DNA from: a virus
IMG/VR virus record: IMGVR_UViG_3300021959_000091
Coordinates: 1 to 43,829 of that record
Length of the DNA: 43,829 nucleotides
Strand: one strand, 5' to 3'
Shown here: positions 1,586 through 43,349 of the stretch, piece after piece
How positions within the stretch are numbered: position 1 is the first letter of the stretch
Layout: every line of letters begins with the position of its first letter
Position numbers and translations under genes: made by a program
Notes under the pieces: generated by a model
Databases searched by the model: none
Seen by the model: only the letters and a program-made list of their open reading frames with translations
Told to the model about the DNA's origin: nothing

Positions 1586-2032
1586 CTATACACCTTTAAG
1601 TGATGGGTTGTCAGATTGTGCAAGATAACCACGGAAGGTCTCATTAAGAGCTGCAAGATCTGTTGCAACCTTTGAAACACGTCGTTGTTCACCTTTCATC
1701 TTATCAAAGAGTGTATCGGATTCAGCATTACCAAGGGCATATGCAACGGAATTAGGATCAGATGCATCATTAAGCTTCTTGAGGAATTCATCACCAGCTG
1801 CAATCCAACCAGTAAGTGTGTTAACCATAGCAGTATTAATTTCACCTTGTGCTTCTGCAGCCTTAACTGCAGGATCAACTGCGGCAATCTCAGCAGCAGC
1901 TTCTGGATCAGCTTCTACATCAACATCAAACTCACCTGTTGATGTATCATCATCAAGCTCAAGCTCAAATGCTTCTTTCTCCTGGTCGTTCTCCTTAAGA
2001 ACCTTCGCGAACCTATTTCCAAATTTAGTCAT
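1586..2032 (-). CDS. Conserved-looking phage protein, unknown function
   Basis: 148 residues from ATG at 2032 (MTKFGNRF...). A longer frame to 2068 is possible, but the late-type element ACTAAATA ends five bases before the 2032 ATG, so the upstream extension would lie in the promoter. After a basic N-terminus the protein has an acidic stretch (ELELDDDTSTGEFDVDVEAD) and an Ala-rich helical segment. No catalytic motif is visible. The short basic start, acidic middle and late promoter resemble the small prohead-core or internal proteins of T4-like phages, but this is only inference. A strong terminator lies directly after it. Confidence 0.75.
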   Translation of the reverse strand: MTKFGNRFAKVLKENDQEKEAFELELDDDTSTGEFDVDVEADPEAAAEIAAVDPAVKAAEAQGEINTAMVNTLTGWIAAGDEFLKKLNDASDPNSVAYALGNAESDTLFDKMKGEQRRVSKVATDLAALNETFRGYLAQSDNPSLKGV

Positions 2033-2037
2033 GTTAA

Positions 2038-2045
2038 TATTTAGT
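2038..2045 (-). promoter_or_regulatory. T4-type late promoter (ACTAAATA) for 1586-2032
   Basis: The TAAATA core is followed by exactly five bases and then ATG at 2032. Predicted transcript is leaderless. It is divergent from the late promoter at 2052-2059. Confidence 0.65.
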
Positions 2046-2051
2046 CTAGGG

Positions 2052-2059
2052 CATAAATA
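2052..2059 (+). promoter_or_regulatory. T4-type late promoter (CATAAATA) for 2067-2393
   Basis: The core is followed by seven bases and then ATG at 2067. The expected start gives a leader of about two bases. Confidence 0.6.
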
Positions 2060-2066
2060 ATAATAC

Positions 2067-2393
2067 ATGAATCAGTCAGAAAATCCATATTCTACAAAAT
2101 TTAATGATCGACCTGTTAAACTTAAGGGCAATACTGACGATCAAGTTGCTAAATATAAGGACGAAGAGAATGGGCAGAAGGCTGGTCCAGTACTTCCATT
2201 CGAACTTGAGAAACTTACAGAGGTTCTTGGTAATACATTCGTATCCCTCGCTGAGCTACACCGTATGTTAAACAATGTTAAGAATAATGAATCAGTAGAT
2301 GATCAGGATATAAAGAATCTACAAGATAAGATTGATAAGATTAACAATCTAATCCTTGAGCTACCTAAAGAAGTAGCAAAGTTGTCACTTTAA
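2067..2393 (+). CDS. Small protein of unknown function, C-terminal coiled coil
   Basis: 108 residues, not recognised. The first half is hydrophilic and disordered-looking (KLKGNTDDQVAKYKDEENG). The second half, from about residue 48, is a heptad-like helix rich in Leu, Asn and Lys ending ILELPKEVAKLSL, probably a coiled coil. It has its own late-type promoter, diverging from the gene at 1586-2032, which suggests expression with virion genes although it lies beside the replication genes. No Shine-Dalgarno sequence is visible. Confidence 0.75.
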   Translation: MNQSENPYSTKFNDRPVKLKGNTDDQVAKYKDEENGQKAGPVLPFELEKLTEVLGNTFVSLAELHRMLNNVKNNESVDDQDIKNLQDKIDKINNLILELPKEVAKLSL

Positions 2394-2395
2394 AG

Positions 2396-2426
2396 TTGAT
2401 TCTTTAAAGAAAGACCTTATTATTAT
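2396..2426 (+). promoter_or_regulatory. Possible sigma70-like promoter for 2433-2801
   Basis: TTGATT (2396-2401) and TATTAT (2421-2426) with a rather long 19-base spacer, six bases before ATG at 2433. The placement matches the other sigma70-like promoters here; the spacer makes it weak. Confidence 0.35.
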
Positions 2427-2432
2427 AGTACA

Positions 2433-6139: not shown

Positions 6140-7462
6140 TTAGAGATTAGTAAATACGATTCTACGTAGTGTCTCATGTTGTTGAGTTAGTCCGCATAAG
6201 AAACTATCTTCAGTACCGCATGAGAGGGTATAATAAGGGCAACCAACAAGAACTTCCCAGTCAGTTGTTGAAAGAGGGGCAAATACATTAACTTCAAGTC
6301 GTGAAGTATCAGTATCTTTATAGAATGAGCTGAGACCAGCGGATAACAAGCTATTCACTACAGGATAGCCATCAGAAGCAAGTTCAGTTGTTGGATACTC
6401 ACCATGATTGAATGATGAAAGGATACCAGCAATGAATACAGAGCGTGAAAAGCCACCATAATCGTAAATCGGGCTACCAACAAAGCCTGTATCAAGCTTA
6501 GTACCATCATCATAGTTAAATATGAATCTATAAGGGTTAGCTGGTGTAGCCCATTGTAGTTCTACATCACCAATAAAGGCTGACATGCCATATAAGAAAG
6601 TATTTGGATAGAAGCTCTCATTGATAGTAGCTCCTGTTGCTGAAAGGTCACAGTTACCATCAGGACATCCAACATGTGGCTCCATACCTAAGAAAGGTAG
6701 ACGTGGTTTATCTTCAGATGTTGGTACACCTTGTACTGTAGGTAGATCTGACCTATTATTAAAATCGAAAGGAACTAAAGGGGTAAATTCAAACTCTTCC
6801 TCATCTGCATCTGTTTGATTACCATCAACATGGAAACCTGTTGTTACAATAACACCGTTTGTAGTACCAGTAAGAGGTTTAACAAATGAAACACCAGGTC
6901 TATATCTAGATCCAGCTGAAATATCTAGACTTACTTCTTGTGTAAGCAAAGATGTAAAGAATGTATCACCTTCATCCTTATAATCGACGAATACCTTTCT
7001 TCCATAATCACCGAGACGTGCGCGAATGGTTCTTTTACCGTCACTAACAAGGTTAAACTGTGTAAGTGCTTGTGTTGTTATAACATCAAAATTGCTATCA
7101 CGGATTGTTATGCTATTTGGAACATAATCAACACCAGATCTTATTGCACCAGTTGTATATTCAAGTTCAGCAGCAAATACACCTAAGCTATCAAAGCCAA
7201 TACCAAGTACAGGCATGTTCATTGCTCGAGCAGTTTCAGCTACAAACGTTCCACCACCAGAAAACCCAAGATCAGGTCCAATACCACCACCACTCAATGT
7301 ATGAGCACCGTCTTGTAGAAACATACAATAGCCAATCTCATCATCAGCAGTCCAGCCACTTAATTCGTAAGTGAATGACCATGTGATGTCATACTGTGGA
7401 GACATTCCTTCCTCGAATACAGCTACTGAGGCAGCAGAAAGGGGAAGTGTTGGGTAAACCAT
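6140..7462 (-). CDS. Fibre/adhesin-like virion protein
   Basis: 440 residues from ATG at 7462. No family is recognised for the N-terminal 300 residues, which are beta-rich with many Gly/Thr/Asp. Residues about 307-409 (RFIFNYDDGTKLDTGFVG ... ASDGYPVV ... VLVGCPYY) match the domain inside the neighbouring 945-residue protein in order and key residues: RFI-NY, DTGF-G, GG-R--FI, DGYP and a final CP. A late-type promoter precedes it at the exact leaderless spacing. It probably starts a two-gene unit with 3296-6133. A receptor-contact role is inferred from context. Confidence 0.8.
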   Translation of the reverse strand: MVYPTLPLSAASVAVFEEGMSPQYDITWSFTYELSGWTADDEIGYCMFLQDGAHTLSGGGIGPDLGFSGGGTFVAETARAMNMPVLGIGFDSLGVFAAELEYTTGAIRSGVDYVPNSITIRDSNFDVITTQALTQFNLVSDGKRTIRARLGDYGRKVFVDYKDEGDTFFTSLLTQEVSLDISAGSRYRPGVSFVKPLTGTTNGVIVTTGFHVDGNQTDADEEEFEFTPLVPFDFNNRSDLPTVQGVPTSEDKPRLPFLGMEPHVGCPDGNCDLSATGATINESFYPNTFLYGMSAFIGDVELQWATPANPYRFIFNYDDGTKLDTGFVGSPIYDYGGFSRSVFIAGILSSFNHGEYPTTELASDGYPVVNSLLSAGLSSFYKDTDTSRLEVNVFAPLSTTDWEVLVGCPYYTLSCGTEDSFLCGLTQQHETLRRIVFTNL

Positions 7463-7467
7463 ATACT

Positions 7468-7475
7468 TATTTAAT
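7468..7475 (-). promoter_or_regulatory. T4-type late promoter (ATTAAATA) for 6140-7462
   Basis: The TAAATA core, exactly five bases, then ATG at 7462. Confidence 0.65.
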
Positions 7476-7511: not shown

Positions 7512-9101
7512 TTACATTCCCCACTCAAACTTTACAATACCATCAGATGTATATCCAAAAGAGTTACTACCAACAGAGTGACCGGATGCACCTGGTGCAC
7601 CAGCCCCGCCCCAGAATGAAGCGTTACCATGAGTCTCTTCATCACCTTCACTGCAGTCCATACCACCCCAAGCACCTGAAAGCATATGAACACCTAGAAT
7701 ATGTGCATCAGTTGGATCAAAAGAACCACCATTGGCTGTAAGAAGACCGGCCCAAGAATCACGTGCAGGAGCAACAGCACCGAATGATCTTGCAAGTTCA
7801 GCACCTCCATTGATTCCAATGAAAGAATCATCACCAGTTGTACGTGAAGTTGTTCTACCAGCACCAACTGTATAATCTATAATAGTTCCAATAGGAGCTG
7901 AAATAGTACCCATAATAGTAGAAGCAGAACCACCTGAAACACTACCACCAGTAGCGCCTGAACCAGTTACCCAGAACTTTGTGAATGTGGCTTTAGTAAA
8001 AAATGTGTCAGTAGCAGCTTCATCAAACACTGCGATACCTGGAACAGGCATACCAATATCTACAGCACCGTCAAGTAATGAAAATGTGCTAGATTGTGGT
8101 ACTCCATCCTTAGTAGCTGTTAAGCCATTAGAAACTGTTAATGTAGTCTCAATAACACCATCAGCTTCAGCTTTAATAAAGTAAACAACACCCTTTGTTG
8201 TATAATCAGCACCACTATCAGTAAGATTACCTTCAGTGAAACTAGCTGGATCAGCTGTACCAACATGAACAGAGTTTGTATAGTCAGGTAAGTTGAATGC
8301 ACTACCAGAACCACCATATTGATATCCGATAACATCATGTAGATCACCATATGATGGAACACCAATTGATTGACCATCGCAAATCAACCAACCAGTAGGC
8401 ATACTTGCACCTGAAGCAGCTGCAACAACAGTACCAACTGGAACAGCCGCTGCAGAAGAGTTAAAGTAGAATGTGGATGACTTCTGAGGTGTACGCCAGT
8501 GAAGATCTCCATTAGCATCAGCACCTAAAAACACTTGATTACTACCAAGACCACCAACTGGGAATGTATAGTCAACAGAGTTAATGTTAAGATCACCAGG
8601 AAGCTTAAGATGTGAAGCACTATTAGCACTAACCTGATCTGTCTTAATTTGGGTACTACTTAAAGATATACGACCACTAACTAACTCGATTGAATTACCA
8701 ACAATGTCGTTGGAAAAGTTACTAGCTGAAAGAGTACCAACTGTAATAGTACCAGAACTTGCATCAATATCAATTGTTTCATCACCAGCTTGGAGAATCT
8801 GTGATGCTGAAAGCCAACCTGTTGTAGTCTTAAAGTAAATGGTATTACTAGTATCGTTAAATACAATATCACCGTCAACAGCGTCTGTAACTGTAGTATG
8901 GTCAGCAAAAGCTCCTTGATATACGTTACCAACAACATTACCACCAAGCGTCTGCCCATCTCCAATAAATAAACGTTTGTTATCTACTGTATATCCAAGT
9001 TCACCTTCTGATAAGGTAATGTTTTGACGATCTAGATCATCTCCACGTCGAACGAGAAGCTTTAAAAGTGTGTTTTCGAGAATTTCGATTTTCTTAGCCA
9101 T
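7512..9101 (-). CDS. Tail fibre with collar domain and Gly-rich tip
   Basis: 529 residues. Residues about 15-55 (LVRRGDDLDRQ...GELGYT...RLFIGDG) resemble the N-terminal domain of major-tropism-determinant-type fibres and are paralogous to the start of the next gene. Residues about 220-280 (PVGTVVAAAS, PTGWLICDG, FNLPDYTNSVHVG) are a phage tail-collar domain of the short-tail-fibre type. The last 130 residues are rich in Gly/Ser (GSGATGGSVSGGSAS) and probably form the receptor-binding tip. It sits in the middle of the fibre cluster, so host recognition is the likely role. The spacing to 9107-10105 is five bases. Confidence 0.88.
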   Translation of the reverse strand: MAKKIEILENTLLKLLVRRGDDLDRQNITLSEGELGYTVDNKRLFIGDGQTLGGNVVGNVYQGAFADHTTVTDAVDGDIVFNDTSNTIYFKTTTGWLSASQILQAGDETIDIDASSGTITVGTLSASNFSNDIVGNSIELVSGRISLSSTQIKTDQVSANSASHLKLPGDLNINSVDYTFPVGGLGSNQVFLGADANGDLHWRTPQKSSTFYFNSSAAAVPVGTVVAAASGASMPTGWLICDGQSIGVPSYGDLHDVIGYQYGGSGSAFNLPDYTNSVHVGTADPASFTEGNLTDSGADYTTKGVVYFIKAEADGVIETTLTVSNGLTATKDGVPQSSTFSLLDGAVDIGMPVPGIAVFDEAATDTFFTKATFTKFWVTGSGATGGSVSGGSASTIMGTISAPIGTIIDYTVGAGRTTSRTTGDDSFIGINGGAELARSFGAVAPARDSWAGLLTANGGSFDPTDAHILGVHMLSGAWGGMDCSEGDEETHGNASFWGGAGAPGASGHSVGSNSFGYTSDGIVKFEWGM

Positions 9102-9106
9102 GATTT

Positions 9107-10105
9107 TTAATATTTAAATACTGGAATTGCAAGGTTGCCACAAGTGCCGGTTTGGATTGTAAGGAATCCAGCTGATGATAAAACAGCGGTAATAGTAGAA
9201 GATTGATCACTATTAGATGATGATGCACAAACTAATGTTTGGTTTGTATATAGTGTGTCAATAATACTACCTTCGTACCCAGATCCTGAATCACCAGTAA
9301 CATTCTGTGTAATGGTAGTTTCATTGGAAATAACACGACCATACTGATCGTAGTCATTTGTGTCAAAAGGACTAATGGTTGCACCACCAAGAGTCTGCAT
9401 CTTAAGGAAGCCACTATCGATTTCAAGTCCTCCACATACTGTTGAGGATTTAATACCACATGCACAAACTGTCTCAGAAGGAGCATTTGCAAATTGTAAT
9501 GCACCAGCTTGGAAGCAAAATGAGTTTGTAATATCAACTTCAACATCAGCACCACTACCACCACAAATACCATCACCAAGACTTCCTGAACTAATAGAAC
9601 CACCAATAACACTAAGTTGACCTGTGTTAGAAATAGTAATGGATGTACCATCAACATTAGCTGAAAGACCTTCTACAGGATTAAGTGCAAGACCACCGTT
9701 TGTAGCAACAACATCACTATTAAGCTTATCAGCAGTTATACCACCATCAACAATATGTAGTTGATTACTACCATCATACTCAATTGAGGATTCATCCGGA
9801 CGTGTGCCAATAAAGCCCCAAGATGAAAGCACTGTAGCATCTGTTCCTGAGAGCTGATAAAGTAAATTGTCTTCATATACTATATCACCGGTAGCAGCTG
9901 TTGTAAGATCGGTTCTTGTACCTACTGAGAGTGGTGGATGTGCTATATTACCTACAGAACTACCACCAATAGTGAAACCATCACCAACCCAGACTCTTTT
10001 ACCATCTGTTGTGTAACCAAGTTCACCTTGCTCTAGAGTAACTGACTGACGCTGTGCATCAGTACCTCTCCTTAATTTTAATTTTACGATTTCGACGTCA
10101 GGCAT
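9107..10105 (-). CDS. Tail fibre/spike, Cys-rich C-terminal half
   Basis: 332 residues. The N-terminus (LRRGTDAQRQSVTLEQGELG ... RVWVGDG) is the same module that begins the neighbouring fibre 7512-9101. The second half is beta-rich and contains an unusual number of cysteines for a phage fibre (GICGG, SFCFQ, TVCACG, TVCGG, LVCAS, GTCG). No collar domain is visible. It probably trimerises and attaches by the N-terminal module. No late promoter is visible before it; the 12-base gap to 10118-10720 suggests co-transcription from the promoter at 10726. Confidence 0.82.
   Translation of the reverse strand: MPDVEIVKLKLRRGTDAQRQSVTLEQGELGYTTDGKRVWVGDGFTIGGSSVGNIAHPPLSVGTRTDLTTAATGDIVYEDNLLYQLSGTDATVLSSWGFIGTRPDESSIEYDGSNQLHIVDGGITADKLNSDVVATNGGLALNPVEGLSANVDGTSITISNTGQLSVIGGSISSGSLGDGICGGSGADVEVDITNSFCFQAGALQFANAPSETVCACGIKSSTVCGGLEIDSGFLKMQTLGGATISPFDTNDYDQYGRVISNETTITQNVTGDSGSGYEGSIIDTLYTNQTLVCASSSNSDQSSTITAVLSSAGFLTIQTGTCGNLAIPVFKY
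9111..9118 (-). promoter_or_regulatory. T4-type late promoter (TTTAAATA) for 7512-9101
   Basis: The core is followed by nine bases and then ATG at 9101. It overlaps the end of the upstream gene 9107-10105. Confidence 0.5.
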
Positions 10106-10117: not shown

Positions 10118-10720
10118 TTAGGAAGTTCTTTTCCACACATACATTCCAAATGCAGGTGGTATGTTATTATGAGGAGTATTGCTACCGGTATTTTGAATAA
10201 CATCAGTAGAGTATGAATCATTACCATTATTGGAGTTACCAGGAGAAATTGTATCACCTCCTAAACTCGTCGATCCATTATCTGACCATTTAGCCTGGTG
10301 ATTATGTGATGGAAGTTCTGATTCTGAAAGTTGGTGGTTATATTTACCACTTGGATCATTACCAGCAGCGATTGCTACTGATTCCGTACCATCATTACCT
10401 GTACCAGCACTTGCAATAAAGCGACCTTCTGCAACTTGCTCCCATGTTGTTCCAGAGAAACGAGTACTTGGATTGTTGTTGTCAGTTGAGAATAAAACTG
10501 AACCAACAGGGTAGATAGCCTCTGCTATAGAATTTGTAAAGACATCACCAATCGTTCCATCGATCTCGACTCCGGTCTGACCAAGTCTCAGTGCACTTTT
10601 ATTACCAAACCCGTCATATATATCTTGTAAACCGGATGATGGTAATGGTGCACCTTTTGCGTGGAGGACACCGACATATGTTTCAGATATGTTAGTGTTA
10701 GTTAGTGATTCACTTGCCAT
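10118..10720 (-). CDS. Collar/short-fibre protein, T4 gp10 C-terminus-like
   Basis: 200 residues from ATG at 10720 (MASESLTNTNISETYVG). An upstream TTG at 10753 would extend the frame through the late promoter and is rejected. Residues about 63-200 show the fold signature YPVGSVLFSTD...P...F.GTWEQVAEGRFI, then ESELPSHNH, and a C-terminal PPAFGMYVWKRTS. This is typical of the C-terminal domain of T4 gp10-type baseplate/short-fibre attachment proteins. It probably fixes fibres to the baseplate. It lies between the fibres and the large wedge-region proteins, as expected for that role. Confidence 0.85.
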   Translation of the reverse strand: MASESLTNTNISETYVGVLHAKGAPLPSSGLQDIYDGFGNKSALRLGQTGVEIDGTIGDVFTNSIAEAIYPVGSVLFSTDNNNPSTRFSGTTWEQVAEGRFIASAGTGNDGTESVAIAAGNDPSGKYNHQLSESELPSHNHQAKWSDNGSTSLGGDTISPGNSNNGNDSYSTDVIQNTGSNTPHNNIPPAFGMYVWKRTS

Positions 10721-10725
10721 ACATA

Positions 10726-10733
10726 TATTTATG
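10726..10733 (-). promoter_or_regulatory. T4-type late promoter (CATAAATA) for 10118-10720
   Basis: The core, exactly five bases (TATGT), then ATG at 10720. This decides the start of that gene. Confidence 0.7.
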
Positions 10734-12714: not shown

Positions 12715-15700
12715 TTAGTAATCGAGGAATTTCACGTCGTTAATTTTAACTCCAACAGGTGCAAAGCTATTAGCTTCAGCAAGTATAGATGTTTTAATCT
12801 GATCTCTTACTACTGTATCTGTAATATTAAGATTTCTAACAATAATATCAATATGGTTAGAGGAGTTTGTTCTGTTAAACTTGAAGAACTGCTGAATCTC
12901 AGTCTTTGATGTTCTCTGACCAGCCGGTACAGAAAGCACAATATCATCAATCTTCTTCTCAAAGAGATATAAGGCATAAACAAGCTCTGTATCAATAGCT
13001 CGGTCATAGATGAATGGATTTCTTATAGTCAAGTCCTTAGTATAGTAATAACCAGATTGTCTTAAGTAAGTAGATAAATCTAAGTTACTTTGGAACCCAG
13101 CTGTACCCATGAAGAACTCATCACTGAACACATCTTGGATCAAATACTTACCTGGTGAGAAAGTTTGGTTCTCATACAACTCACCATTAATGTATAGTGT
13201 TGAGTTACCTTGTTTAGTATCAAGTCTGTAAGTAAAGTTGTAGAATCCAGGCTCTTGTGGCGGGTCAAACGAAATAGTCTTATTAAGCACATCTTCTGTA
13301 TCAAGATAGTTCCTTAAGGATAGCTTAAAGTCAATAGTCTTTGAATCATATATATGATTTAGTACATTATAGTTGGTTAACTTTGTATCATCAGTATTTG
13401 AAGCAAGAGTAACACCTGAAAGAGCAGCTGCTGTAAGTGATGGCATTGTACCTTTGGAAAGGTATAGTTTATCATCATTACCTTGTGCAAGTAGTACTGG
13501 GTATTGGTAGTTAACACCGTTAATGTACTCGTTAATCCAATCCATTGATATAAATTCACCACCTGATAGAGCTACTGTTGTTTGTGTAACTGGTGAAGGT
13601 ATGTTAATGTTACTAATTGAACCAGATAACTCAAATACACCACTTGTATTGAATACGAAATATTCTGTTGGCTTAAGAACATAGATCTTATCATTAACAA
13701 CAGTAAAGTCTTTAATACTATCAGCTCTGAGGAAAGCTTCTGGTGCAGAGTCAAGATTATGCTTAACAATATAGCTACTTACTTGATAGAATGTAGTAGT
13801 GTCATTTTCCCAGTTAGTATTACTACCAGGTAACTTAAAGACTGTATCCTTATACTCAAGAACATTGTCATATAAGCAGAACTCATTCTCATATACATCA
13901 AACTCATCAGCTGATAGAGTAGATACTGCGAATGTATTAGTATTGATTCTTCTTACAAGTTGATCAGATGAGATAAAGTCGATATTATCATGTTTCTGAT
14001 AAGCACCATAGTAATCAAGAATATCTGAACCACATTCAAGCTTAATCTTATTACCTTGTGTGTTAACCTTATAGAATAGATTACCTGCACATGTTACAAT
14101 AAAGTCATCAAGTGCACTTCTCTTAAATACCTGCTTAATCTTGGTTTTAAAGTCTATTCTATTGAGTAGTGTAAAGTCAGTGTTATATATGTAAAGTGTA
14201 TTTTCACTTACAACATGAACAAATGGTGTTACTGTCTGATCTTGGAAAATACCAAATCCTTTATTAGTATTGTTGCCCATAAGAGCAAAGCCATACTGAT
14301 TCTCAGGATTAATATACATGTTAAAGTTCAATGTAAAGTTCTTAGCAGAATCAATCTGATCTGTTACTCTAACACACGCATATTTATCACCATCAAACGT
14401 AAGCTCATCACCGATAAAGTCATTACAAATATTTTCTGTCTCACCTCTTACAATCTTGGATGTTAAGTAACTATCAAATGATGAGATAATAGGAGATGAG
14501 CTATTAATGAGCTCTGTGATGTCAGCATTACCAATTCTTTGATATTTAACTGAAGCATTTGGTACAATAGCAGAATCACTACTCTTATCGAAGAATTTCT
14601 CCTTATTGAGAACTGCTTCAGTTACTGCAAGATCAACACTATCGACACTATCAAAGAAAGAAGGTAGATATACAGATGTAGAAGAAAGAGCAGCACTCTT
14701 TGAGATCTTATCTGGGTAGTAGTATCTATCTACCCATATACCCTGTGTTCCAAGTACACCACCTGACAACCAAGTGCAAAGATATCTACCATTATCATAT
14801 TGTGTGCTATTCTGCCTCTTTACAAATACCTTATCAGCAAGGTTTGGTGAAGGACCAGCAAAAGCTCCATTAAAGGCAAATTGTGTATCATTGAGGTTTA
14901 GCTTCTCGTATGGATACATTGAAGAAGGTGCAGTAAAGTGAGTATCTGTACCATTTACAATAAATACATCTTTATCATAAAAACTGTAATTGAGGTTAAG
15001 CTTAGTAAGACCTTTTTCTTGATCATTACCTGAATATATGCCATAATACTCTCTAGGATCTTGACCTAGCCCGATTGGACTATTAACCATGCTAGAACCC
15101 CTTTTGACAAAGTTAAACTCAGACCTATTAGTATCAAGTGAGAGATAATTTATAGGCATACTATCAGCTGAGATACTATTGTAGTTAGCAACAAATAAAT
15201 ACTGACCATCTTCATCATCATTACTATTCTCTGTATCTAGAATAAGATTAGATGTCTTTTGATTATTATAGCTTGCAAAGCTTTTATTTAAAAACTGCTT
15301 ATTTTGATCTAAGTTGTAGTTAACATGAAGTAAGTTATTAAGACCTCTGTTAAGACTACCAGCTTTTAATGGCTCGAGAACCATGCTATCACCACTTAAA
15401 GTAACAACATTAAGAACATCGTTATGAAACTTGAATAATTGAAGATATCCATCATCATCAAGCACATATCTAAATACATCATTTCGCTCTTGCGTGATAC
15501 CCTTATAGTAATCTACATTCTGGTAGAATACGAAGGTATTTTCTGATGTGTTGTAGTTGAGGTAGAAGTCAAACAACCCGTTGTTGTGCTTAATACGACA
15601 AAGGTTGTTATTAAGGGCTTCAATCTCGAAAAAGAAGTTATTATCAAATAACCCAGTAGTATCAAGGGTCTTAAGACCAAGAGCTTTTTGCTGATCAGTA

Positions 15701-16029: not shown

Positions 16030-16038
16030 TAACATACA

Positions 16039-16046
16039 TATTTAAT
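16039..16046 (-). promoter_or_regulatory. T4-type late promoter (ATTAAATA) for 12715-16029
   Basis: Nine bases separate the core from ATG at 16029, the same spacing as at 9101 and 19500. Three bases separate it from the rejected ATG at 16035. Confidence 0.55.
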
Positions 16047-19500: not shown

Positions 19501-19509
19501 CTTCTTTAA

Positions 19510-19517
19510 TATTTAAT
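19510..19517 (-). promoter_or_regulatory. T4-type late promoter (ATTAAATA) for 16588-19500
   Basis: The core is followed by nine bases, including AAAGAAG, and then ATG at 19500. The TAA of the upstream gene (19513-19515) is the first half of the TAAATA core. Confidence 0.55.
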
Positions 19518-21738: not shown

Positions 21739-21744
21739 ATAACA

Positions 21745-24139: not shown

Positions 24140-24147
24140 ACTAAATA
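24140..24147 (+). promoter_or_regulatory. T4-type late promoter (ACTAAATA) for 24153-24647
   Basis: The core, exactly five bases (ATAGT), then ATG at 24153. Confidence 0.65.
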
Positions 24148-24152
24148 ATAGT

Positions 24153-31290: not shown

Positions 31291-32448
31291 CTATACGTAG
31301 TTTAAGTTTAGTCTATTTGCCCAGTCTGTCTCTAAATCAGTCAGACCAGTTGCGAATTGTTCATCATCGCCATCTGTTCGCTTAATGAAAATAGTAGAAC
31401 CTTCTTGTAGCCAACCACTATAGTAGAATACGTTAAGATCACATCTATACTCAGAAATATTATTAGTTTGTAGTGTTGAGGAGCCTCCACCAATGGCGCC
31501 ACCTCCACCTGAAGTTAATTCAATCTGCTTACGAAGCTTAATCTGCTCCTCGAGGAACATTGCTTTAATGCTCTTCTGAAGCTCTTTCTTAAGCTTTGAA
31601 TTACCACCTTTAAATTCTGCATCTTCCTCACTATCATCATCAGCATCCTTATCAACTAATTCAAGCTGTAGTAATGTCTCTTCAATAGTTTCACCTTTAC
31701 GCTCCTCAATAGCTGTAATGGCTTCCTTCTTATCCCTCTTAACCTTCGCAATCTGCTTCTTACGATCCTTTTTATCCGTAACATTCTCGACGATGTCGTT
31801 AATCTCTTCCTCGAACTGTGCTTCTGTATCTGTAATAGCAGATTTAGCTTCTTTAGCTATAGTACGACGAATGAAATCACCAAGAGACTCTTCATCATCT
31901 ACATCCTCTACTTCTTCCTCTATAGCCTCTACTTCTACTTCTTCCTCTTCAGCCTCCTCAATAGCCTGCAACTCAGCAACAGCATCTTCTGGAGTCACTT
32001 CCTTCACAACCTGACTCTTAATAGTATCTAAAATAAAGGCACCAAGATCTTCTGTCTCCTCTTCAACAACCTCCTCTTCAACAACTTCCTCTTCAGCCTC
32101 AGGAACCTCTTCCTCTGCTTCTTCAATAACCTCTTCTACCTCTTCAGTATCTACAACCTCTACAACAACCTCCTCTTCTGGAGCCTCTACAACAGTTGCA
32201 TTAGTATATGCACTAATGTAATCAATAGAATCATCAACTACATCCTCAACTACATCCTCTACCTCTATCTTTTCCTCACTTACAACTTTTGCTGCAATCT
32301 TTGCACCTGATAGAGTTGCTAATAGAAAGCCAGTAAGTGATTCCTCTGTAACAGCTTCCTCTGTAACTACCTTCTTATCTGCATCATCGACACCAACTGA
32401 CGGCTTGTCGCCGACAGACAGGTACGCATCATACATTGAAGGGGTCAT
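31291..32448 (-). CDS. Highly acidic repeat protein with structural C-terminal domain
   Basis: 385 residues. Most of residues 60-200 is Glu/Val/Asp (EEAEEEVPEAEEEVVEEEVV). Three short amphipathic segments recur between the acidic stretches: ESLTGFLLATLSGAKIAAK, EDLGAFILDTIKSQVVKEV and ESLGDFIRRTIAKEAKSAI. A charged coiled coil follows (DKKDRKKQIAKVKRDKKEAI). After a GGGGAIGGGSS linker comes a folded tail (YRCDLNVFYYSGWLQEGSTI). The composition resembles scaffold or internal core proteins, but the folded tail suggests a virion component. ATG at 32448 is set by the late promoter. Confidence 0.78.
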   Translation of the reverse strand: MTPSMYDAYLSVGDKPSVGVDDADKKVVTEEAVTEESLTGFLLATLSGAKIAAKVVSEEKIEVEDVVEDVVDDSIDYISAYTNATVVEAPEEEVVVEVVDTEEVEEVIEEAEEEVPEAEEEVVEEEVVEEETEDLGAFILDTIKSQVVKEVTPEDAVAELQAIEEAEEEEVEVEAIEEEVEDVDDEESLGDFIRRTIAKEAKSAITDTEAQFEEEINDIVENVTDKKDRKKQIAKVKRDKKEAITAIEERKGETIEETLLQLELVDKDADDDSEEDAEFKGGNSKLKKELQKSIKAMFLEEQIKLRKQIELTSGGGGAIGGGSSTLQTNNISEYRCDLNVFYYSGWLQEGSTIFIKRTDGDDEQFATGLTDLETDWANRLNLNYV

Positions 32449-32453
32449 ACTGT

Positions 32454-32461
32454 TATTTAAT
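32454..32461 (-). promoter_or_regulatory. T4-type late promoter (ATTAAATA) for 31291-32448
   Basis: The core, exactly five bases (ACAGT), then ATG at 32448. Confidence 0.65.
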
Positions 32462-32708: not shown

Positions 32709-33242
32709 TCACTTCATACGAGCCTTGTCAACTCTCTCAGCATCTTCTTCATCTGATATACCAGCTTTAGCTTTAGCCATTGCAAGTTCATGGCTACGAG
32801 CATTTCTTGCTTCTAATTCTGTTGAACCAGCAGCGTGACCAGCTTGTTCACCGTCTTCTGATGCATCATCTGATGTGACAGCCATTAGGACTTCATGGAG
32901 TGTATCAGCTAACTCCTTAGGCAATTTAATTGTAATAGTATCTTCACCTTCACCATCTTCAGTATTACCAGCAAGCTTACTAATACCTTTATCAGCAGCA
33001 TCAATAGCCTTATCAGCAAGAGATCCTACAGCTCGACCAGCAGCTTTAATACCTTCACCACCAACCTCAGCAGCAACCTTACCAGTCTCTTTAGCGAAAT
33101 CTGCTGCTAAGTTACCAGCACCACGTAAAACCTTTTTGGTTCTATCACTAGTTGCAGCCTTTCTAATCTTTGAACCGGCACTTCTTAGTGCACCACCTAA
33201 AAATTCATTTAATAGACTTTCGTACTTATCATCAAATTGCAT
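32709..33242 (-). CDS. Prohead-core-like protein ending at an in-frame TGA
   Basis: 177 residues to the TGA, 247 if read through. It starts MQFDDKYESLLNEFLGGALR. An Ala/Gly/Lys-rich helical part follows (EVGGEGIKAAGRAVGSLADK), then the strand-helix module EDTITIKLPKELADTLHEVL and an acidic, disordered segment. The same strand-helix module occurs in the protein at 43414-43829. It is probably an internal or core-type head protein; that is inference from composition. Its promoter is a perfect TATAAATA at leaderless spacing. The stop is followed in frame by a conserved domain (previous entry). Confidence 0.8.
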   Translation of the reverse strand: MQFDDKYESLLNEFLGGALRSAGSKIRKAATSDRTKKVLRGAGNLAADFAKETGKVAAEVGGEGIKAAGRAVGSLADKAIDAADKGISKLAGNTEDGEGEDTITIKLPKELADTLHEVLMAVTSDDASEDGEQAGHAAGSTELEARNARSHELAMAKAKAGISDEEDAERVDKARMK

Positions 33243-33247
33243 ACTAA

Positions 33248-33255
33248 TATTTATA
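33248..33255 (-). promoter_or_regulatory. Perfect T4 late promoter (TATAAATA) for 32709-33242
   Basis: The full octamer, exactly five bases (TTAGT), then ATG at 33242. Confidence 0.8.
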
Positions 33256-34675: not shown

Positions 34676-34683
34676 ATTAAATA
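34676..34683 (+). promoter_or_regulatory. T4-type late promoter (ATTAAATA) for 34689-35189
   Basis: The core, exactly five bases (TGTGT), then ATG at 34689. This excludes the longer frame beginning at 34656. Confidence 0.65.
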
Positions 34684-34688
34684 TGTGT

Positions 34689-35189
34689 ATGGAAGAGTAT
34701 GATCCAGCTTTTGATCCTAATGGGAATGATGTTAACGATGCAGTTGATGATATCCTTACTCAGTTGAGTACTCAGAATCATTCTATTACGAAAGCAAAGC
34801 AAGCACAAGAGATTCCAGATATTGAAGATCTTGAAGAGTATCTTGTAAAGAAGACTGCAAAGCTTATCGATACAACACTTGATGCTGTAGATAATGTTAA
34901 AGACTATATCTCATCTGCACCAGAGAATAGAGACGTTGCTTCCTTAGCTGAGCTTATGCGATCAGCCAATAGTGCTATTGAGACAATGCAGAAGATACAC
35001 TCTAATAAGGAGAACAACGAAGCACGTAAAGAGATCAAGCAGATGGATATTGACTCTAAGAAAGAGCTCAATGTAATGGATAATACAACTAAGCTTGTTA
35101 TGTCAAGAGAAGAAATTATGAAAGCTCTAACAACAGAAGAGCCGGTTGTTACTGATCAGGATAAGTCTGATGCTGTTGATATAGATTAA
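34689..35189 (+). CDS. 16: Small terminase subunit, T4 gp16-like
   Basis: 166 residues (T4 gp16 has 164), starting MEEYDPAFDPNGNDV. It is helical and acidic. The central part DTTLDAVDNVKDYISSAPEN followed by ASLAELMRSANSAIETMQKI, and the later KEIKQMDIDSKKELN and VMSREEIMKAL, follow the pattern of small terminases in marine T4-like phages as I remember them. It would bind phage DNA and regulate the large terminase during packaging. The large subunit is not in the window. The gene is transcribed opposite to its neighbours and its stop overlaps that of the gp5-position gene by four bases. Confidence 0.6.
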   Translation: MEEYDPAFDPNGNDVNDAVDDILTQLSTQNHSITKAKQAQEIPDIEDLEEYLVKKTAKLIDTTLDAVDNVKDYISSAPENRDVASLAELMRSANSAIETMQKIHSNKENNEARKEIKQMDIDSKKELNVMDNTTKLVMSREEIMKALTTEEPVVTDQDKSDAVDID

Positions 35190-37723: not shown

Positions 37724-38893
37724 CTACTTATTTCCTATAGTTACTTTGTTATCTTTAATTGAAGTACTAAATGCTTCACTAAGCATTGTGTTACCATAAT
37801 CACCGATGAGTGATTTAAAATCGAGTGTTACTTGATATGCTTCAGGTATTGGTGTAGTGATTTGCTTACTACCAATCACTCCCTCACCTTTACCATTAGG
37901 AACAAATACTGATGTCTTTCTGGTTGTACCCATAAACTCAACTCTCATACTATCAATGTAAGCATATGGCATTGAGAACTGACCTGGTACAGTTACACTA
38001 TAAATCTTTGGTGGAGGTGTTCTTGAGAACGATGTCTTATATGGCTTATTCTGAAAAGCTAATAGCCATAAGAGCTCATAGTTCTGCTGCACTGGGCTAA
38101 AGTTATTTCTACGAACTGTATTAACGAGTGGGAATGTTATAGACTCAGTACGGCCATCAACACCTTGAAAGTATCTCGGCTTCTCAATGTATACTCCAGG
38201 TTGAGCAAAGTTAACTACTTCACTTATATCGCCTAGTATACTCTGCATCCCATTCACAGCGGTTTTAATAATAGAGCCACCTGCCTCACCGCTCCAACTT
38301 CCAGTTGAAGTTGATGGACTACCGTAGATTGGAAGCCTATATTGAAATCCGGTAGGTTTGGTAAAGTAAATACCTTCAAGTGACTTTAAATTATTCTGTG
38401 ATAGTAGAGCCTTATCAGATGCTGTACCGCCTGCGATGTTTTGAAATGAGTTAATTGCGGCGCCTACCTTACCACCAATCTCTGTTAAGGTCTCTTTACT
38501 ACTTTCTGCCACCCTACCTAAAACGGATTGAATATATTCACTCTCACCGACAGCTTTAATTGCACCAGCCGATGCATTTAGATAGTATAATGCACCTGAG
38601 ATGAGGGAGCTCAATAGTTGCTCACGTTCTGTGAGAAATACACATGGAACTTTGTCTAACGCAGCTGATGTGGCCTTAGGGCCTGCATACCAACTGAAGT
38701 CATTAATAACATCAATAACTTTCTTTGATGGCTTTAACTCTGGCTTATTATCTGTATTATTAAGGGAAATGTTAAACTTTTTAAGATATTCATTACCTTT
38801 AATCTTTTTACCGATATCGGTAGAGGTATCAACTATATCAGTGCTATTACTAAATATTGATCCACCGTTTGTGTCTACTAGTAGTGTGCTCAT
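37724..38893 (-). CDS. 48: Baseplate tail-tube cap protein, T4 gp48-like
   Basis: 389 residues (T4 gp48 has 364). The C-terminal half has the family pattern: PRYFQGVDGRTESITFPLVN, then NYELLWLLAFQNKP and PPKIYSVTVPGQFSMPYAYI, a tube-like beta domain. gp48 sits on the hub and starts tail-tube polymerisation together with gp54. The ATG overlaps the stop of the tape-measure-like gene (TAATG), so the two are coupled. Stop is TAG, one base before the gp53 ATG. Confidence 0.87.
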   Translation of the reverse strand: MSTLLVDTNGGSIFSNSTDIVDTSTDIGKKIKGNEYLKKFNISLNNTDNKPELKPSKKVIDVINDFSWYAGPKATSAALDKVPCVFLTEREQLLSSLISGALYYLNASAGAIKAVGESEYIQSVLGRVAESSKETLTEIGGKVGAAINSFQNIAGGTASDKALLSQNNLKSLEGIYFTKPTGFQYRLPIYGSPSTSTGSWSGEAGGSIIKTAVNGMQSILGDISEVVNFAQPGVYIEKPRYFQGVDGRTESITFPLVNTVRRNNFSPVQQNYELLWLLAFQNKPYKTSFSRTPPPKIYSVTVPGQFSMPYAYIDSMRVEFMGTTRKTSVFVPNGKGEGVIGSKQITTPIPEAYQVTLDFKSLIGDYGNTMLSEAFSTSIKDNKVTIGNK

Positions 38894-40509
38894 TATGCGT
38901 AAAATTCTTCTGTTAATGGATTAGTTTCGAACTGAACTTGTGATGACCCGGTACCTGACTTTGATACCATCATATTAACTGCATCACGTATAGATATCAA
39001 TACATTTAGCTGATTCTTATTAACACTATTAAGCTCACTCATCACTGCGGAGTTTTGATCAAGCATCTTATCAATAGGACCTCCACGCTTAGCAGCTAAT
39101 ATATCGTCTTGATTATCATATGCTGTTACTTTACCGTTTTTAGAAATATAACCATCTTCCACTTTTGGTGGGTTCCAATTGACATCATCATCACTTGGTA
39201 ACTTACCAGTAGCTTTAAATGCTTTCAGTTCATTTGGTGTGAGGTGTAAAATCTCTTGTGCTCTCTGCTCCGCCGGAGACATCGCAGCATCTTTTGCTTG
39301 CTGTCGCGCCTGCTGCTGCGCATTCCAAGCAGATTTTCTTCGGTCAGCTTCTGATAAACGTTCTGCAGGCTTCAAGGCATCTGGAATCATATCCCATACC
39401 AGGTCCTTACCAGCTTTGATTGTATTATCTACCCAATCTTTAATACCATTAAAGAATCCTAAGAATGCTTCACCAATCTCTCCCATTATATCTTTCATCC
39501 AAGCCCAACTATCATTAGCAAGTTCACCAGCTTTTTTACCTACATCACTTTCACTAACCATGGTCCATAATGCATTTAGTGATTTACTCAAAGTATCCCA
39601 ATCGCTTTGACCTAAGAATGCAGGGAAGAAGTTTGCCCAAGCTTTAAATCCACCCTTCCAATCTTTCATGGCAAAGCAACCAATAGCTTCACCTAACTTC
39701 CAAAAACCGCTAAGTAAAGGTACTTTACCTTCTTTAATTTTATCCATCAATATAGTACCATACTCCAAGGCTTTCGCCTTAAGAAAGGCACCGAAGTCCA
39801 TTGGCTCACCTGTGTTTGGATCTGTTGGAGCATTAGCTTCGTATATGAACTTAATCATATCCATACCAATCGATATAGCAGTACCAACTCCAGGGAAGAG
39901 ATTAGCTATACCAGATACAAGCTCCCACAATCCACTAATATACTGACCCTTTTTAAAGTGATCATAAGCAAATCCAAAACTAAGAAGTGATCCGATTAAT
40001 GGTAAAAACTTTAATGTCTTGAGAGGTATAAATTTCGCAAGCTTGGCTGCCATTGTTGGTAGTTTACCAATATCAGTCGCGACTACACTACCGAAGTCAA
40101 GTATAGCCTCAGCAAACTCTCCAAACTTTGTTATTATAGTATCCTTTAAAGTTGCAAGAGCAGCACCGATAACACCTGCACCTAATAAAAGTCCACCCAT
40201 TAGCTTACCCCAGTTAAAACCACCATCTTTACCCTTCTCAGCCTCCTTTTGCATCTGTGCAGTTTGACCTACAGCACCTCTAGTTGTCTTACTAATCCTT
40301 TCAGCCTCCGGTCCTGGATTAATAACATCTTTCATGATGCCAAAGATCTTCTTATAGCGAGATGTTTCCTGTGTTGTTAGGGTAGGGCTTACCTTACCAG
40401 GCTTACTATCTTTACGTACACCCTTATCGCCACGCATTTGACCTGAAGCTCCTTTATCAGCAAGGGCTCCTAATACTTGTGCGAATGGGTTAGTTGAATC
40501 TTCTGCCAC
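38893..40509 (-). CDS. Tape-measure/baseplate hub protein, gp29-like by position
   Basis: 538 residues (T4 gp29 has 590). Three hydrophobic stretches (about residues 102-120, 168-182 and 191-220: GKLMGGLLLGAGVIGAALAT, LPLIGSLLSFGFAYDHF, GIANLFPGVGTAISIGMDMI) are embedded in helical sequence, as in tape-measure proteins that later enter the host membrane. The C-terminal half is Ala/Lys-rich and helical. It lies upstream of gp48 as gp29 does in T4. The start is GTG, fixed by the late promoter five bases away; no ATG fits. Function inferred from order and hydrophobic segments. Confidence 0.78.
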   Translation of the reverse strand: MAEDSTNPFAQVLGALADKGASGQMRGDKGVRKDSKPGKVSPTLTTQETSRYKKIFGIMKDVINPGPEAERISKTTRGAVGQTAQMQKEAEKGKDGGFNWGKLMGGLLLGAGVIGAALATLKDTIITKFGEFAEAILDFGSVVATDIGKLPTMAAKLAKFIPLKTLKFLPLIGSLLSFGFAYDHFKKGQYISGLWELVSGIANLFPGVGTAISIGMDMIKFIYEANAPTDPNTGEPMDFGAFLKAKALEYGTILMDKIKEGKVPLLSGFWKLGEAIGCFAMKDWKGGFKAWANFFPAFLGQSDWDTLSKSLNALWTMVSESDVGKKAGELANDSWAWMKDIMGEIGEAFLGFFNGIKDWVDNTIKAGKDLVWDMIPDALKPAERLSEADRRKSAWNAQQQARQQAKDAAMSPAEQRAQEILHLTPNELKAFKATGKLPSDDDVNWNPPKVEDGYISKNGKVTAYDNQDDILAAKRGGPIDKMLDQNSAVMSELNSVNKNQLNVLISIRDAVNMMVSKSGTGSSQVQFETNPLTEEFYA

Positions 40510-40514
40510 AAATA

Positions 40515-40522
40515 TATTTAAT
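40515..40522 (-). promoter_or_regulatory. T4-type late promoter (ATTAAATA) before a GTG start
   Basis: The core, exactly five bases (TATTT), then GTG at 40509. The TAA stop of the upstream gene (40518-40520) forms the first half of TAAATA. Confidence 0.65.
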
Positions 40523-41258
40523 CGGTAGATAGGAAGCTAGCATCAATTTCTACCATAACTTCTTCATCAAAGGTAAGAGACTTGTCAGTTACCTCCTTAA
40601 TTCCACCAATATAATTAAGAATCTTGTTACTTAACTTAAGAGGTAAGTTATTTACAATCTCTTTTCGCTCATATGAACTAATCTCATCAAATGTAATACC
40701 TACATCGCCGACTTTAATACTATCAATATATTTAGATGTTTCGTAGGCTACAACAAGATCAACACTCTGTTTAACCTTCTCCTGCTGATCTGTAACCTTT
40801 GCAAGCTCAGCCCCCAGCTTTGTATTAACCTCTATATCAATAGAGAGTGTAGGTACTTTAAGTTTAACAGTAATATCATCATATGATACTGTAGATTTAA
40901 GCTTTACATCAGACTTCTTAAAGGTAGGCAGATCATTTAGATCATACTTGACGTCATCAATAGTAATATCTGGACCAACTGACTGTTTACGAAGCTCTAT
41001 AAGAATAGGATTCTTATCAATAATAAGGAAATCAATGTCTGCAATGCTATTGTCTGTGATAAGCTTGTTAAGAATGTTAGCACGTTTGATAACACCATCA
41101 ACACCATCAAATACAGAGCGAAGCAATTCCTTCTGCTGACTAACACTAGCATGCTTAAATGATGCATTCTTTCCTGTAGATGGTACCTTAATAGATAAAG
41201 TGTTAGCATCATTAAGCTCTTGAAGATTAGTAACAAAGCTTTTAACAGTTGAGTTCAT
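40518..41258 (-). CDS. T4_baseplate-like hub or tail assembly protein (gp26/gp51 type)
   Basis: 246 residues. The opening IKVPSTGKNASFKHASVSQQ and KELLRSVFDGVDG resembles the T4 gp26/gp51 baseplate-hub assembly family (LPSGK...F..L...Q...L). The long helical C-terminus (RKEIVNNLPLKLSNKILNYI) is shared in pattern with the next gene (MDNLPASMFKHINKFI), so the two may be distant paralogues. They probably act as hub-assembly chaperones. It lies between the tape-measure-like gene and the second T4_baseplate-like gene. Its late promoter is at the leaderless spacing. Confidence 0.75.
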   Translation of the reverse strand: MNSTVKSFVTNLQELNDANTLSIKVPSTGKNASFKHASVSQQKELLRSVFDGVDGVIKRANILNKLITDNSIADIDFLIIDKNPILIELRKQSVGPDITIDDVKYDLNDLPTFKKSDVKLKSTVSYDDITVKLKVPTLSIDIEVNTKLGAELAKVTDQQEKVKQSVDLVVAYETSKYIDSIKVGDVGITFDEISSYERKEIVNNLPLKLSNKILNYIGGIKEVTDKSLTFDEEVMVEIDASFLSTD

Positions 41259-41263
41259 ACTAT

Positions 41264-41271
41264 TATTTATC
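41264..41271 (-). promoter_or_regulatory. T4-type late promoter (GATAAATA) for 40518-41258
   Basis: The core, exactly five bases (ATAGT), then ATG at 41258. The TAA stop of the upstream gene (41267-41269) is part of the core. Confidence 0.65.
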
Positions 41272-42079
41272 CGTTATTTTGCTTTTGCAACTTATCATTT
41301 TCATCCTTGACTCTCTTACTATGTGCATTCAGAATGATTCTTGACTCAATAGGTGATAGCTCGAAGAAGAGGTTAGAGCCTGGGAGTATTGTATTCTGGA
41401 ACATATAGATCAATGTATAGAATGAATTGAGATCAGTAGAGAAAATGTTAGTAATGAACTGCATGACACCATTACCAATAATATTAATACTAATTTTTTC
41501 TAACCCTATTGATTTATTTTCATCAATGATAGCTAGATCGAGAAGATTGTCTTGAATGGTTTGAATAAACTTATTAATATGCTTAAACATAGAAGCAGGT
41601 AGATTATCCATAATCTGAATTTGCTCATCTTTACTAAGAGTGTTAAACACTAGTATATCATCACCAATGCTAACCTGCTTGATAGTTGCTATAAACAAGT
41701 CATCAATATTCTCATAGTATGTTATACATGGTAGATCTAATGTAACTTCAATACCACCTTCTTTAAACCTTGTCTCAAGGTCAACATAGTTAGCTTCAAG
41801 CTTATCAAGGACAGCTGCTAGCTGTACCTCTACTTGCTTATCTTCAATGTTAAGTGACATACTACCTTCAATGAATAGCATTCGAACATATATTAATAGA
41901 TAGAACCTATCAAAGATGTTCATATCCGGCTCAATAAAGAGCTCATCGAAGAATCTACTTATACCTACTAAATCCTTATTCTGTGCGAACTTAATAATAG
42001 ATAGATACTCTCTATTCGTAAGCTCTTCTATTCTGCACTTCCTACCAGATGGTAAAACTATTTCAACATTAAATTCCAT
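41267..42079 (-). CDS. T4_baseplate-family hub protein (gp26/gp51-like)
   Basis: 270 residues. The start EFNVEIVLPSGRKCRIEELT followed by NREYLSIIKFA is the characteristic beginning of T4_baseplate family proteins. The remainder is mainly helical (FDRFYLLIYVRMLFIEG, IMDNLPASMFKHINKFIQ). It probably helps to build or fold the baseplate hub. The gene overlaps the upstream tube-like gene by 11 bases and has the clearest Shine-Dalgarno sequence in the window (GAGGAG, six bases before ATG). This fits internal translation on a polycistronic mRNA, in contrast to the promoter-proximal genes. Confidence 0.82.
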   Translation of the reverse strand: MEFNVEIVLPSGRKCRIEELTNREYLSIIKFAQNKDLVGISRFFDELFIEPDMNIFDRFYLLIYVRMLFIEGSMSLNIEDKQVEVQLAAVLDKLEANYVDLETRFKEGGIEVTLDLPCITYYENIDDLFIATIKQVSIGDDILVFNTLSKDEQIQIMDNLPASMFKHINKFIQTIQDNLLDLAIIDENKSIGLEKISINIIGNGVMQFITNIFSTDLNSFYTLIYMFQNTILPGSNLFFELSPIESRIILNAHSKRVKDENDKLQKQNNG

Positions 42080-42791
42080 TCAACACTCCTCTAGGAGTAT
42101 TTAATTGGTAATGTGAAAAGTTAAAGGCTGTAACACGAGATATATCACTTTCACTCATCTCACCGTAGCTAACATCATCACCTTGAACGTTAGTTGGAAC
42201 AGCATCATAAAATGTATGCATCTTACGAATGCCATACTCTACAATATCATTGTTACCTTTATTGGACTCACTAACCTTATCAGCATATCTCTCTGCTGTA
42301 CGAGAATATTGAATGATGTCAATATTACACTTAATATCTGGCTCTGTATCATCTTCAATTAAGCCAGCATATGAAGCAGCCACTACCCATGGCTGTAAGA
42401 AGAAAGAGAATACATCTCTATTTGTTTCAAGAAATTTAATATCAACACTGTTATTCACACCCCTTGTACCACCTACTTGTGCAACTTGAAATCCGCCAGA
42501 TTTGTCAGAAATATTTGCAGTAGATATTTCAAAATCTTCACCAGGGAAGCCTACACTCTGAGCAAGAAGAAAGCCTACCTCTGAATCAGATACTCTATCA
42601 ATTAAGTTTGTATCAACTTTAAAACTCTGAGGTCTATAGACACTCAAGTAATAATCGATAGCTTCTCCGACATTAACCATTTCACCGCTCCCCGTACGAG
42701 CAGAAAAATTTATACCCCAAATGTTTTTAAGTGGGATGTCGTTCGTCCAATCTTGATGAAGACGGAGACGCTTTCGGATAGAGTTAGGCAT
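42069..42791 (-). CDS. Tail-tube-like protein (second tube-fold gene)
   Basis: 240 residues. VGFPGEDFEISTANISDKSG, then DIKFLETNRDVFSFFLQPWV is the pattern of tail-tube-fold proteins (FPGE ... F-ET ... PW). It is longer than the gp19-like neighbour and lies directly downstream of it. It could be gp54-like (the tube initiator) or a second tube subunit; the sequence alone does not decide. The ATG follows the gp19 stop by five bases without a promoter, so it is co-transcribed. Confidence 0.75.
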   Translation of the reverse strand: MPNSIRKRLRLHQDWTNDIPLKNIWGINFSARTGSGEMVNVGEAIDYYLSVYRPQSFKVDTNLIDRVSDSEVGFLLAQSVGFPGEDFEISTANISDKSGGFQVAQVGGTRGVNNSVDIKFLETNRDVFSFFLQPWVVAASYAGLIEDDTEPDIKCNIDIIQYSRTAERYADKVSESNKGNNDIVEYGIRKMHTFYDAVPTNVQGDDVSYGEMSESDISRVTAFNFSHYQLNTPRGVLNGI

Positions 42792-42796
42792 TTAGA

Positions 42797-43336
42797 TTAA
42801 CGCTCTTTTGTATAGAAGTGGTAAGATATAGTAGCGTCGATCTGTACTGTGGTACCTGTACCGCCTGCGATGTCATATGCAATGTCACTAACAGTACGAA
42901 GAGAAGCACCAACAAGCTTATATTCAGCAACTGGCTCAAGATCTTTATCAAGCTGTGCTAACTGAATGTAGAAATCATCATCTGGTGTACCATACTCACC
43001 TGTAGATGTCTGATCATCGAAAAGAGCACGAGAAGCTGTTTCGAAGTAGTTACGAAGTGAACTCTCAGCATCAAGGTAAAGTGAAAGTGCATAAGCATCT
43101 GATCCTGGATAAGTAGCAGCACCTGGAACGTTTAAGTTGAGACCCATATAAGGTACAGCAACGTTGGTGACGGCACGACCTGGAAGGGAGGCTGTCTTAA
43201 CATAAATAAGGTCACCTTCTTCGAGAGCAGGTACACCTTGCAACTGCATCTGAGTTACACGGAAAAGAAAATCACGTGAAAAGTCTTTATCAGCAGCACT
43301 ACGGTAGAAATTTTGAATGTTCTGGTTAACGGGCAT
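42797..43336 (-). CDS. 19: Tail tube protein, T4 gp19-like
   Basis: 179 residues (T4 gp19 has 163). NFYRSAADKDFSRDFLFRVT, ASLPGRAVTNVAVPYMGL and NVPGAATYPGS are typical for gp19-type tube monomers. The monomer forms hexameric rings stacked inside the sheath. It heads the tail operon running left to the hub genes and starts behind a late promoter with leaderless spacing. A terminator hairpin separates it from the gene to its right. Confidence 0.92.
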   Translation of the reverse strand: MPVNQNIQNFYRSAADKDFSRDFLFRVTQMQLQGVPALEEGDLIYVKTASLPGRAVTNVAVPYMGLNLNVPGAATYPGSDAYALSLYLDAESSLRNYFETASRALFDDQTSTGEYGTPDDDFYIQLAQLDKDLEPVAEYKLVGASLRTVSDIAYDIAGGTGTTVQIDATISYHFYTKER

Positions 43337-43341
43337 ATCAT

Positions 43342-43349
43342 TATTTATG
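43342..43349 (-). promoter_or_regulatory. T4-type late promoter (CATAAATA) for the gp19 operon
   Basis: The core, exactly five bases (ATGAT), then ATG at 43336. Confidence 0.7.

Follow-up and report, generated by a model that had tools for sequence, protein, structure and literature searches.

Content and late boxes of the window

The window analyzed here, i.e., the whole stretch of IMG/VR record IMGVR_UViG_3300021959_000091, is a 43.8-kb record of an uncultured virus that is a T4-like phage by gene content. It encodes a gp44 clamp loader, gp6- and gp25-like baseplate wedge proteins, a hub, a tail tube, a primase, and a dUTPase. The element under study is the hexamer TAAATA, the late promoter core of T4-like phages, hereafter called the box; its spacing is the number of bases separating it from the start codon. 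Ten genes display the box at a spacing of exactly five, one of them starting with GTG (40509), and others at six, seven, or nine (Table 1). All these sites, listed in an original prediction made from the letters alone, are exact, and an additional box was found at spacing 13 (24112).

The ten genes at spacing 5, among 37 called genes, compare with 0.16 expected and with a maximum of two in 300 dinucleotide shuffles, and spacings 5-9 together include 16 of the 37. TAAATA shows no overall excess (56 occurrences in the window versus 59 expected), and hexamers permuted from the same letters give at most two genes at spacing 5, without a peak like that of TAAATA. In the window, TAAATA is thus special by placement only, not by abundance. 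The choice of start codon calls for caution at 2032, 10720, and 34689, which are internal to longer open frames, and the gene at 16029 has an alternative in-frame ATG at 16035 that would give a spacing of 3. A TAAATA located 18 bases before start 42079 was rejected as it lies within the upstream gene, this start having its own SD-like (Shine-Dalgarno-like) GGAG.

Table 1. Promoter elements of the window and gp23 leader hairpin loci of its relatives
Element	Span	Strand	Gene and remarks
Sigma70-type promoter TTGCTT 462-467, N16, TATAAT 484-489, N6, GTG 496	462-495	+	primase gene 496-1527; early-type arrangement, predicted leaderless
Late box TAAATA 2038-2043, 5 bases, ATG 2032	2033-2043	-	gene 1586-2032; spacing 5 in both orthologs found
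Late box TAAATA 2054-2059, 7 bases, ATG 2067	2054-2066	+	gene 2067-2393, divergent from 2032
Weaker sigma70-type candidate TTGATT 2396-2401, N19, TATTAT 2421-2426, N6, ATG 2433	2396-2432	+	
Late box 7468-7473, 5 bases, ATG 7462	7463-7473	-	gene 6140-7462
Late box 9111-9116, 9 bases, ATG 9101	9102-9116	-	tail collar/fibre-like gene 7512-9101
Late box 10726-10731, 5 bases, ATG 10720	10721-10731	-	tail fibre-like gene 10118-10720
Late box 16039-16044, 9 bases, ATG 16029	16030-16044	-	gene 12715-16029; orthologs mostly 6-9
Late box 19510-19515, 9 bases, ATG 19500	19501-19515	-	gene 16588-19500; orthologs: 25 at spacing 6, 7 at 9
Late box 21745-21750, 6 bases, ATG 21738	21739-21750	-	gene 19513-21738
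Late box 23605-23610, 6 bases, ATG 23598	23599-23610	-	baseplate wedge (gp6-like) gene 21754-23598
Late box 24126-24131, 13 bases, ATG 24112	24113-24131	-	gp25-like gene 23627-24112; orthologs mostly 5-6
Late box 24142-24147, 5 bases, ATG 24153	24142-24152	+	gene 24153-24647; spacing 5 in 48/50 orthologs
Late box 32454-32459, 5 bases, ATG 32448	32449-32459	-	gene 31291-32448
Late box 33248-33253, 5 bases, ATG 33242	33243-33253	-	gene 32709-33242
Late box 34678-34683, 5 bases, ATG 34689	34678-34688	+	gp3-type gene 34689-35189 (profile search); orthologs 31/51 at 5, 11 at 7
Late box 40515-40520, 5 bases, GTG 40509	40510-40520	-	endolysin/peptidase-like gene 38893-40509; spacing 5 in 10/10 orthologs
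Late box 41264-41269, 5 bases, ATG 41258	41259-41269	-	baseplate hub-like gene 40518-41258; spacing 5 in 20/27 orthologs
Late box 43342-43347, 5 bases, ATG 43336	43337-43347	-	tail tube gene 42797-43336; spacing 5 in 18/22 orthologs
gp23 leader hairpin	L179:14890-14980	+	
gp23 leader hairpin	L282:9890-10000		
gp23 leader hairpin	L191:14460-14572		

Box spacing in related loci and genomes

The scan of spacings against shuffled sequence, suggested along with the original prediction as its check, finds the peak at five in the window and again in about 240 related loci, i.e., 160 from two scans and 80 further ones from a third scan seeded with gp23. In the 160 loci, spacings 4 to 9 are found in 8, 252, 130, 40, 27, and 21 genes, respectively, followed by background and secondary peaks, and the edge of the histogram at 5 is sharp and one-sided. 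The 80 independent loci give 1, 167, 42, and 31 genes at spacings 4 to 7. Permuted hexamers give no peak at spacing 5 in the related loci. The secondary peaks at 25, 29, and 35 were discarded, as they mostly reflect in-frame start codons lying further downstream or a second box close to a spacing-5 site.

As pooled counts come from related, non-independent loci, counts per genome are the safer statistic. A contig of 154.6 kb has 29 spacing-5 genes and 200 kb of a distant contig, whose gp6 is about 42% identical to that of the window, have 35, with about one expected. These histograms accept any start codon in the early part of an open frame, meaning that single starts may be wrong; the reference phages were handled alike. 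Spacing is kept among orthologs despite divergence of the proteins, as for the GTG gene at 40509, always at 5 with identities of 25-46%.

With the same procedure, T4, KVP40, and Syn9 have no spacing-5 gene and P-SSM2 has two, the box peaking about 20-38 bases before the start in these four reference phages, which bears out the predicted difference from T4. In a tree of 13 core proteins, the two large contigs of the family stand on a long separate branch, apart from the cyano-/pelagiphage and T4/KVP40 groups. The window is from a deep, abundant, uncultured aquatic T4-like lineage.

Promoter identity and register

The late box of T4, TATAAATA, spans -13 to -6 (PMC1524935), as stated in the original prediction, and the transcription start (+1) is thus expected six bases after TAAATA. 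In spacing-5 genes, this position coincides with the first base, A or G, of the start codon. The purine fraction six bases past the box amounts to 0.76 in T4 and KVP40, 0.82 in cyanophages, 0.79 in pelagi- and methylophages, and 0.73-0.82 in family genes at spacings 6-9, the purine peak moving with the box and not with the codon. Position -1 is a pyrimidine in 371 of 391 spacing-5 genes (95%) versus 522 of 895 unboxed genes. An ATG or GTG starts 388 of these 391 genes; TTG starts the remaining three, versus 102 of the 895 unboxed genes.

Boxes are carried by virion genes, whereas no replication gene tested has one at spacings 5-9, and they occur preferentially before genes that head a transcription unit (odds ratio of 2.0). 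The TAAATA core is invariant by search design, and the bases preceding it are A/T-rich but relaxed compared to TATAAATA. Homologs of gp55 are found in 7 of 13 family contigs and homologs of gp45 in G001 and G002, the two large ones, the window itself being a fragment without gp55. A TATAAATA-like box, a placement before virion genes, and gp55 with gp45 in relatives are thus all observed, as for T4-type late promoters, but no gp33 was found in 13 contigs.

No SD sequence is seen in the predicted mRNA of any of the ten spacing-5 genes of the window, in agreement with what had been claimed, and SD-like 4-mers in the window (0.11) match shuffles (0.10). The observed/shuffled ratio of SD motifs is 0.6-1.5 in the family, i.e., near chance, versus 1.7-2.7 in reference phages. 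The median gap before unboxed internal genes is near zero in the window and G001, which is consistent with translational coupling.

Early promoters

In unboxed genes, TATAAT ranks first among positional hexamers, with spacings of 6 and 7. Full TTGA-N15-19-TATnnT promoters precede 40 genes at spacing 6, 13 at 8, 8 at 7, and at most 6 at any other spacing, and reference phages lack this spacing-6 peak. The canonical -10 hexamer ends at -7; therefore, a sigma70-type promoter at spacing 6 would put +1 on the start codon. Contigs G001, G006, and G010 show the peak clearly. The distant G002 has a weak TATAAT signal (two genes at spacing 6), but TTGA is enriched 29-30 bases before its starts. No enrichment of a Bacteroidota-type TAnnTTTG promoter in register with the start is found in unboxed genes.

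Early expression thus looks at least partly leaderless. The original prediction treated the effect as a feature of late genes, but the spacing-6 peak of sigma70-type promoters extends it beyond them. In our view, the strongest single argument is that two promoter classes of different geometry would both land on the start codon.

Proposed leaderless initiation and its alternatives

Very probably, the late mRNAs of this lineage are leaderless or nearly so. The gp55-type late promoters would place the transcription start at the first base of the start codon (spacing 5) or one to four bases before it (spacings 6-9). Translation of such mRNAs would probably rely on 70S-type initiation at a 5'-terminal AUG or GUG, without SD pairing, and that of operon-internal genes, also devoid of SD, probably on coupling. 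For many early genes, sigma70-type promoters at spacing 6 would again place +1 on the start codon. Most virion proteins and some early ones appear to be made without the usual ribosome-docking sequence. The 5' ends, the ribosome mechanism, and the competence of the host for leaderless mRNA are what we infer from these sequence features.

Several points weigh against such a reading. The position of +1 is deduced from T4 geometry and the register signals. About half of the boxed genes are at spacings 6-9 and would have leaders of 1-4 bases, and boxed genes within operons could also be transcribed from upstream promoters. The T4 late co-activator gp33 gives no match to phrog_254 at E <= 1 in 13 contigs, including those of 154.6 and 203.8 kb; it may be too diverged for detection or encoded on a missing part of the genome. 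Finally, the gene of the major capsid protein gp23, located outside the window and seen in relatives, is preceded by a conserved leader, its likely promoter lying about 100 bases upstream. The claim that leaderless translation is the main late mode is thus retained in a milder form. It is supported by the spacing edge, the purine peak, the pyrimidine at -1, the scarcity of TTG, the restriction to virion genes, and the lack of SD enrichment, but spacings 6-9 impose the wording "leaderless or nearly so" and gp23, the most abundant late protein, has a long leader.

Homologs of gp55 and gp45 are found among contigs G001-G012, but none of the 13 contigs has a gp33 match; coupling of late transcription to the clamp may involve another protein or a diverged gp33.

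An alternative would be a real late promoter initiating a few bases off relative to T4, or dominated by upstream promoters, leaderless RNAs then being minor. Spacings 6-9 are indeed common and 68 of 188 boxed genes lie at most 20 bases from an upstream gene on the same strand, but the other 120 are unit heads or follow a gap of more than 20 bases. Moreover, the pyrimidine-purine step at the fifth and sixth bases past the box and the scarcity of TTG put +1 on the codon, and no SD is available for a leadered form, making this alternative unlikely.

It is even less likely that TAAATA acts as an A/T-rich ribosome-binding or Kozak-like element of leadered mRNAs, as in SD-poor bacteria such as Bacteroidota. 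The family is SD-poor and AT-rich and the distance to start codons is fixed; however, TAAATA is restricted to virion genes and does not precede, at 5-9, the replication genes that these genomes also encode, the purine signal tracks the box rather than the codon, and the spacing edge (8 genes at 4, 252 at 5) is one-sided. In addition, T4-like phages have this very hexamer, at other distances, as the core of their late promoters, and unboxed genes have TATAAT and not TAnnTTTG. A promoter with +1 on the start codon is therefore favored over a ribosome-binding signal, based on gene class, purine peak, scarcity of TTG, and SD at chance level.

Chance placement combined with flexible start choice, to which an AT-rich genome and the absence of overall excess of TAAATA would lend themselves, has a negligible probability as it is refuted by the shuffles (10 observed versus 0.16) and the replication in independent loci, and runs counter to the permuted letters giving no comparable peak, the lack of spacing-5 genes in T4, KVP40, and Syn9, and the six starts exactly at spacing 5 in the deposited annotation of pelagiphage HTVC008M.

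Beyond late mRNAs, and with less assurance, it is fairly likely that the whole clade is leaderless by default at sigma70 (six bases) and gp55 (five bases) promoters, with a structured leader only for special genes like gp23. SD-led initiation would have been given up, and the phages would depend on a host or phage-modified ribosome initiating efficiently on 5'-terminal AUG/GUG.

Comparison with known phages and leaderless systems

The T4 late promoters (gp55/gp33/gp45), including the cyanomyovirus form NATAAATA, share with the clade the core box, the gene class, the purine peak six bases past the box, and the gp55 and gp45 homologs found in relatives of the window. They differ by a box about 20-38 bases from the start, whereas it stands at 5-9 bases in the clade, without SD, with the first two box letters relaxed and gp33 not found. 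Likewise, the portal (gp20) and protease (gp21) genes of the two large family contigs have boxes at 5-8, while the boxes found for these genes in pelagiphages are at 19-30. If leaderless initiation is confirmed, leader loss or gain would thus be traceable among T4-like phages.

Spacing-5 genes are also present in HTVC008M (ten), Mosig (five), and the methylophage Melnitz (three), with TAAATA-N5-ATG in a subset of genes and a pyrimidine at -1 as in the clade. The deposited HTVC008M annotation independently starts six genes there, namely those of the tape measure, DNA end protector, head completion, CsgF, dioxygenase, and adenylate cyclase. In these phages, unlike in the clade, most other boxes are further upstream, SD is common (0.58-0.77), and the ribosomal protein bS21 is encoded. 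As HTVC008M is cultured, the idea is testable at the bench now.

The bS21 genes of SD-using pelagi- and methylophages are located at W04:91237-91392, W05:9983-10132, and W06:35461-35619, and bS21 was not found in the 13 SD-poor family contigs searched. Phage-encoded bS21 was thus dropped as an explanation, being present in pelagiphages and not found in the family.

Leaderless mRNAs of mycobacteria are similar in that the predicted +1 falls on ATG or GTG and hardly ever on TTG (PMC4633059). Their leaderless translation requires ATG or GTG at +1, whereas Escherichia coli uses leaderless GTG poorly (PMC4633059). However, these are bacterial genes, while those of the clade are viral and preceded by late promoters of phage type. 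Neither whiB, which would suggest an actinobacterial host, nor photosystem reaction-centre genes were found in 16 contigs, and a host search in which genome contigs were scanned with gp6 and gp44 found no relative. Giant phage AR9 also relies on phage-specific promoters for late transcription, but its transcripts carry leaders of 26-491 bases (PMC5312081). The literature searched, mostly without subscription papers, contained no description of leaderless late mRNAs in T4-like phages.

If the leaderless reading is true, an abundant aquatic virus lineage would have swapped SD initiation for leaderless initiation at the head of most of its late transcription units and of many early units. The 5' ends and start codons would then be readable from sequence, with better gene calling in uncultured phages.

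The gp23 leader and minor observations

The gp23 leader folds into a hairpin (UGAGG...CCUGA) with compensatory changes and 98.6% of cells paired, and its 3' end is the SD-like AAAGGAAA. The whole structure has 25 double-sided changes versus 7 in shuffles, nearly all in the helix of this hairpin; a second helix, set one column off, is not supported as counted. Neither the window nor six gp23-leader loci have a match in Rfam. This leader is a candidate new structured RNA and would make gp23 depart from the leaderless rule.

In the 154.6-kb relative, L181:173-5924 holds homologs of curli CsgF/CsgG and of the adenylate cyclase of pelagi- and methylophages. In the same relative, one open frame extends over about 4204 codons (L180:4996-17610) and partially matches a protein of P-SSM2.

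In the window, the internal gene at 42079 is among the few with an SD-like start. It is preceded by CTCC-TAGA-GGAG (42080-42095, minus strand), which could fold as a small hairpin holding the SD-like GGAG, and the arrangement is similar in four relatives.

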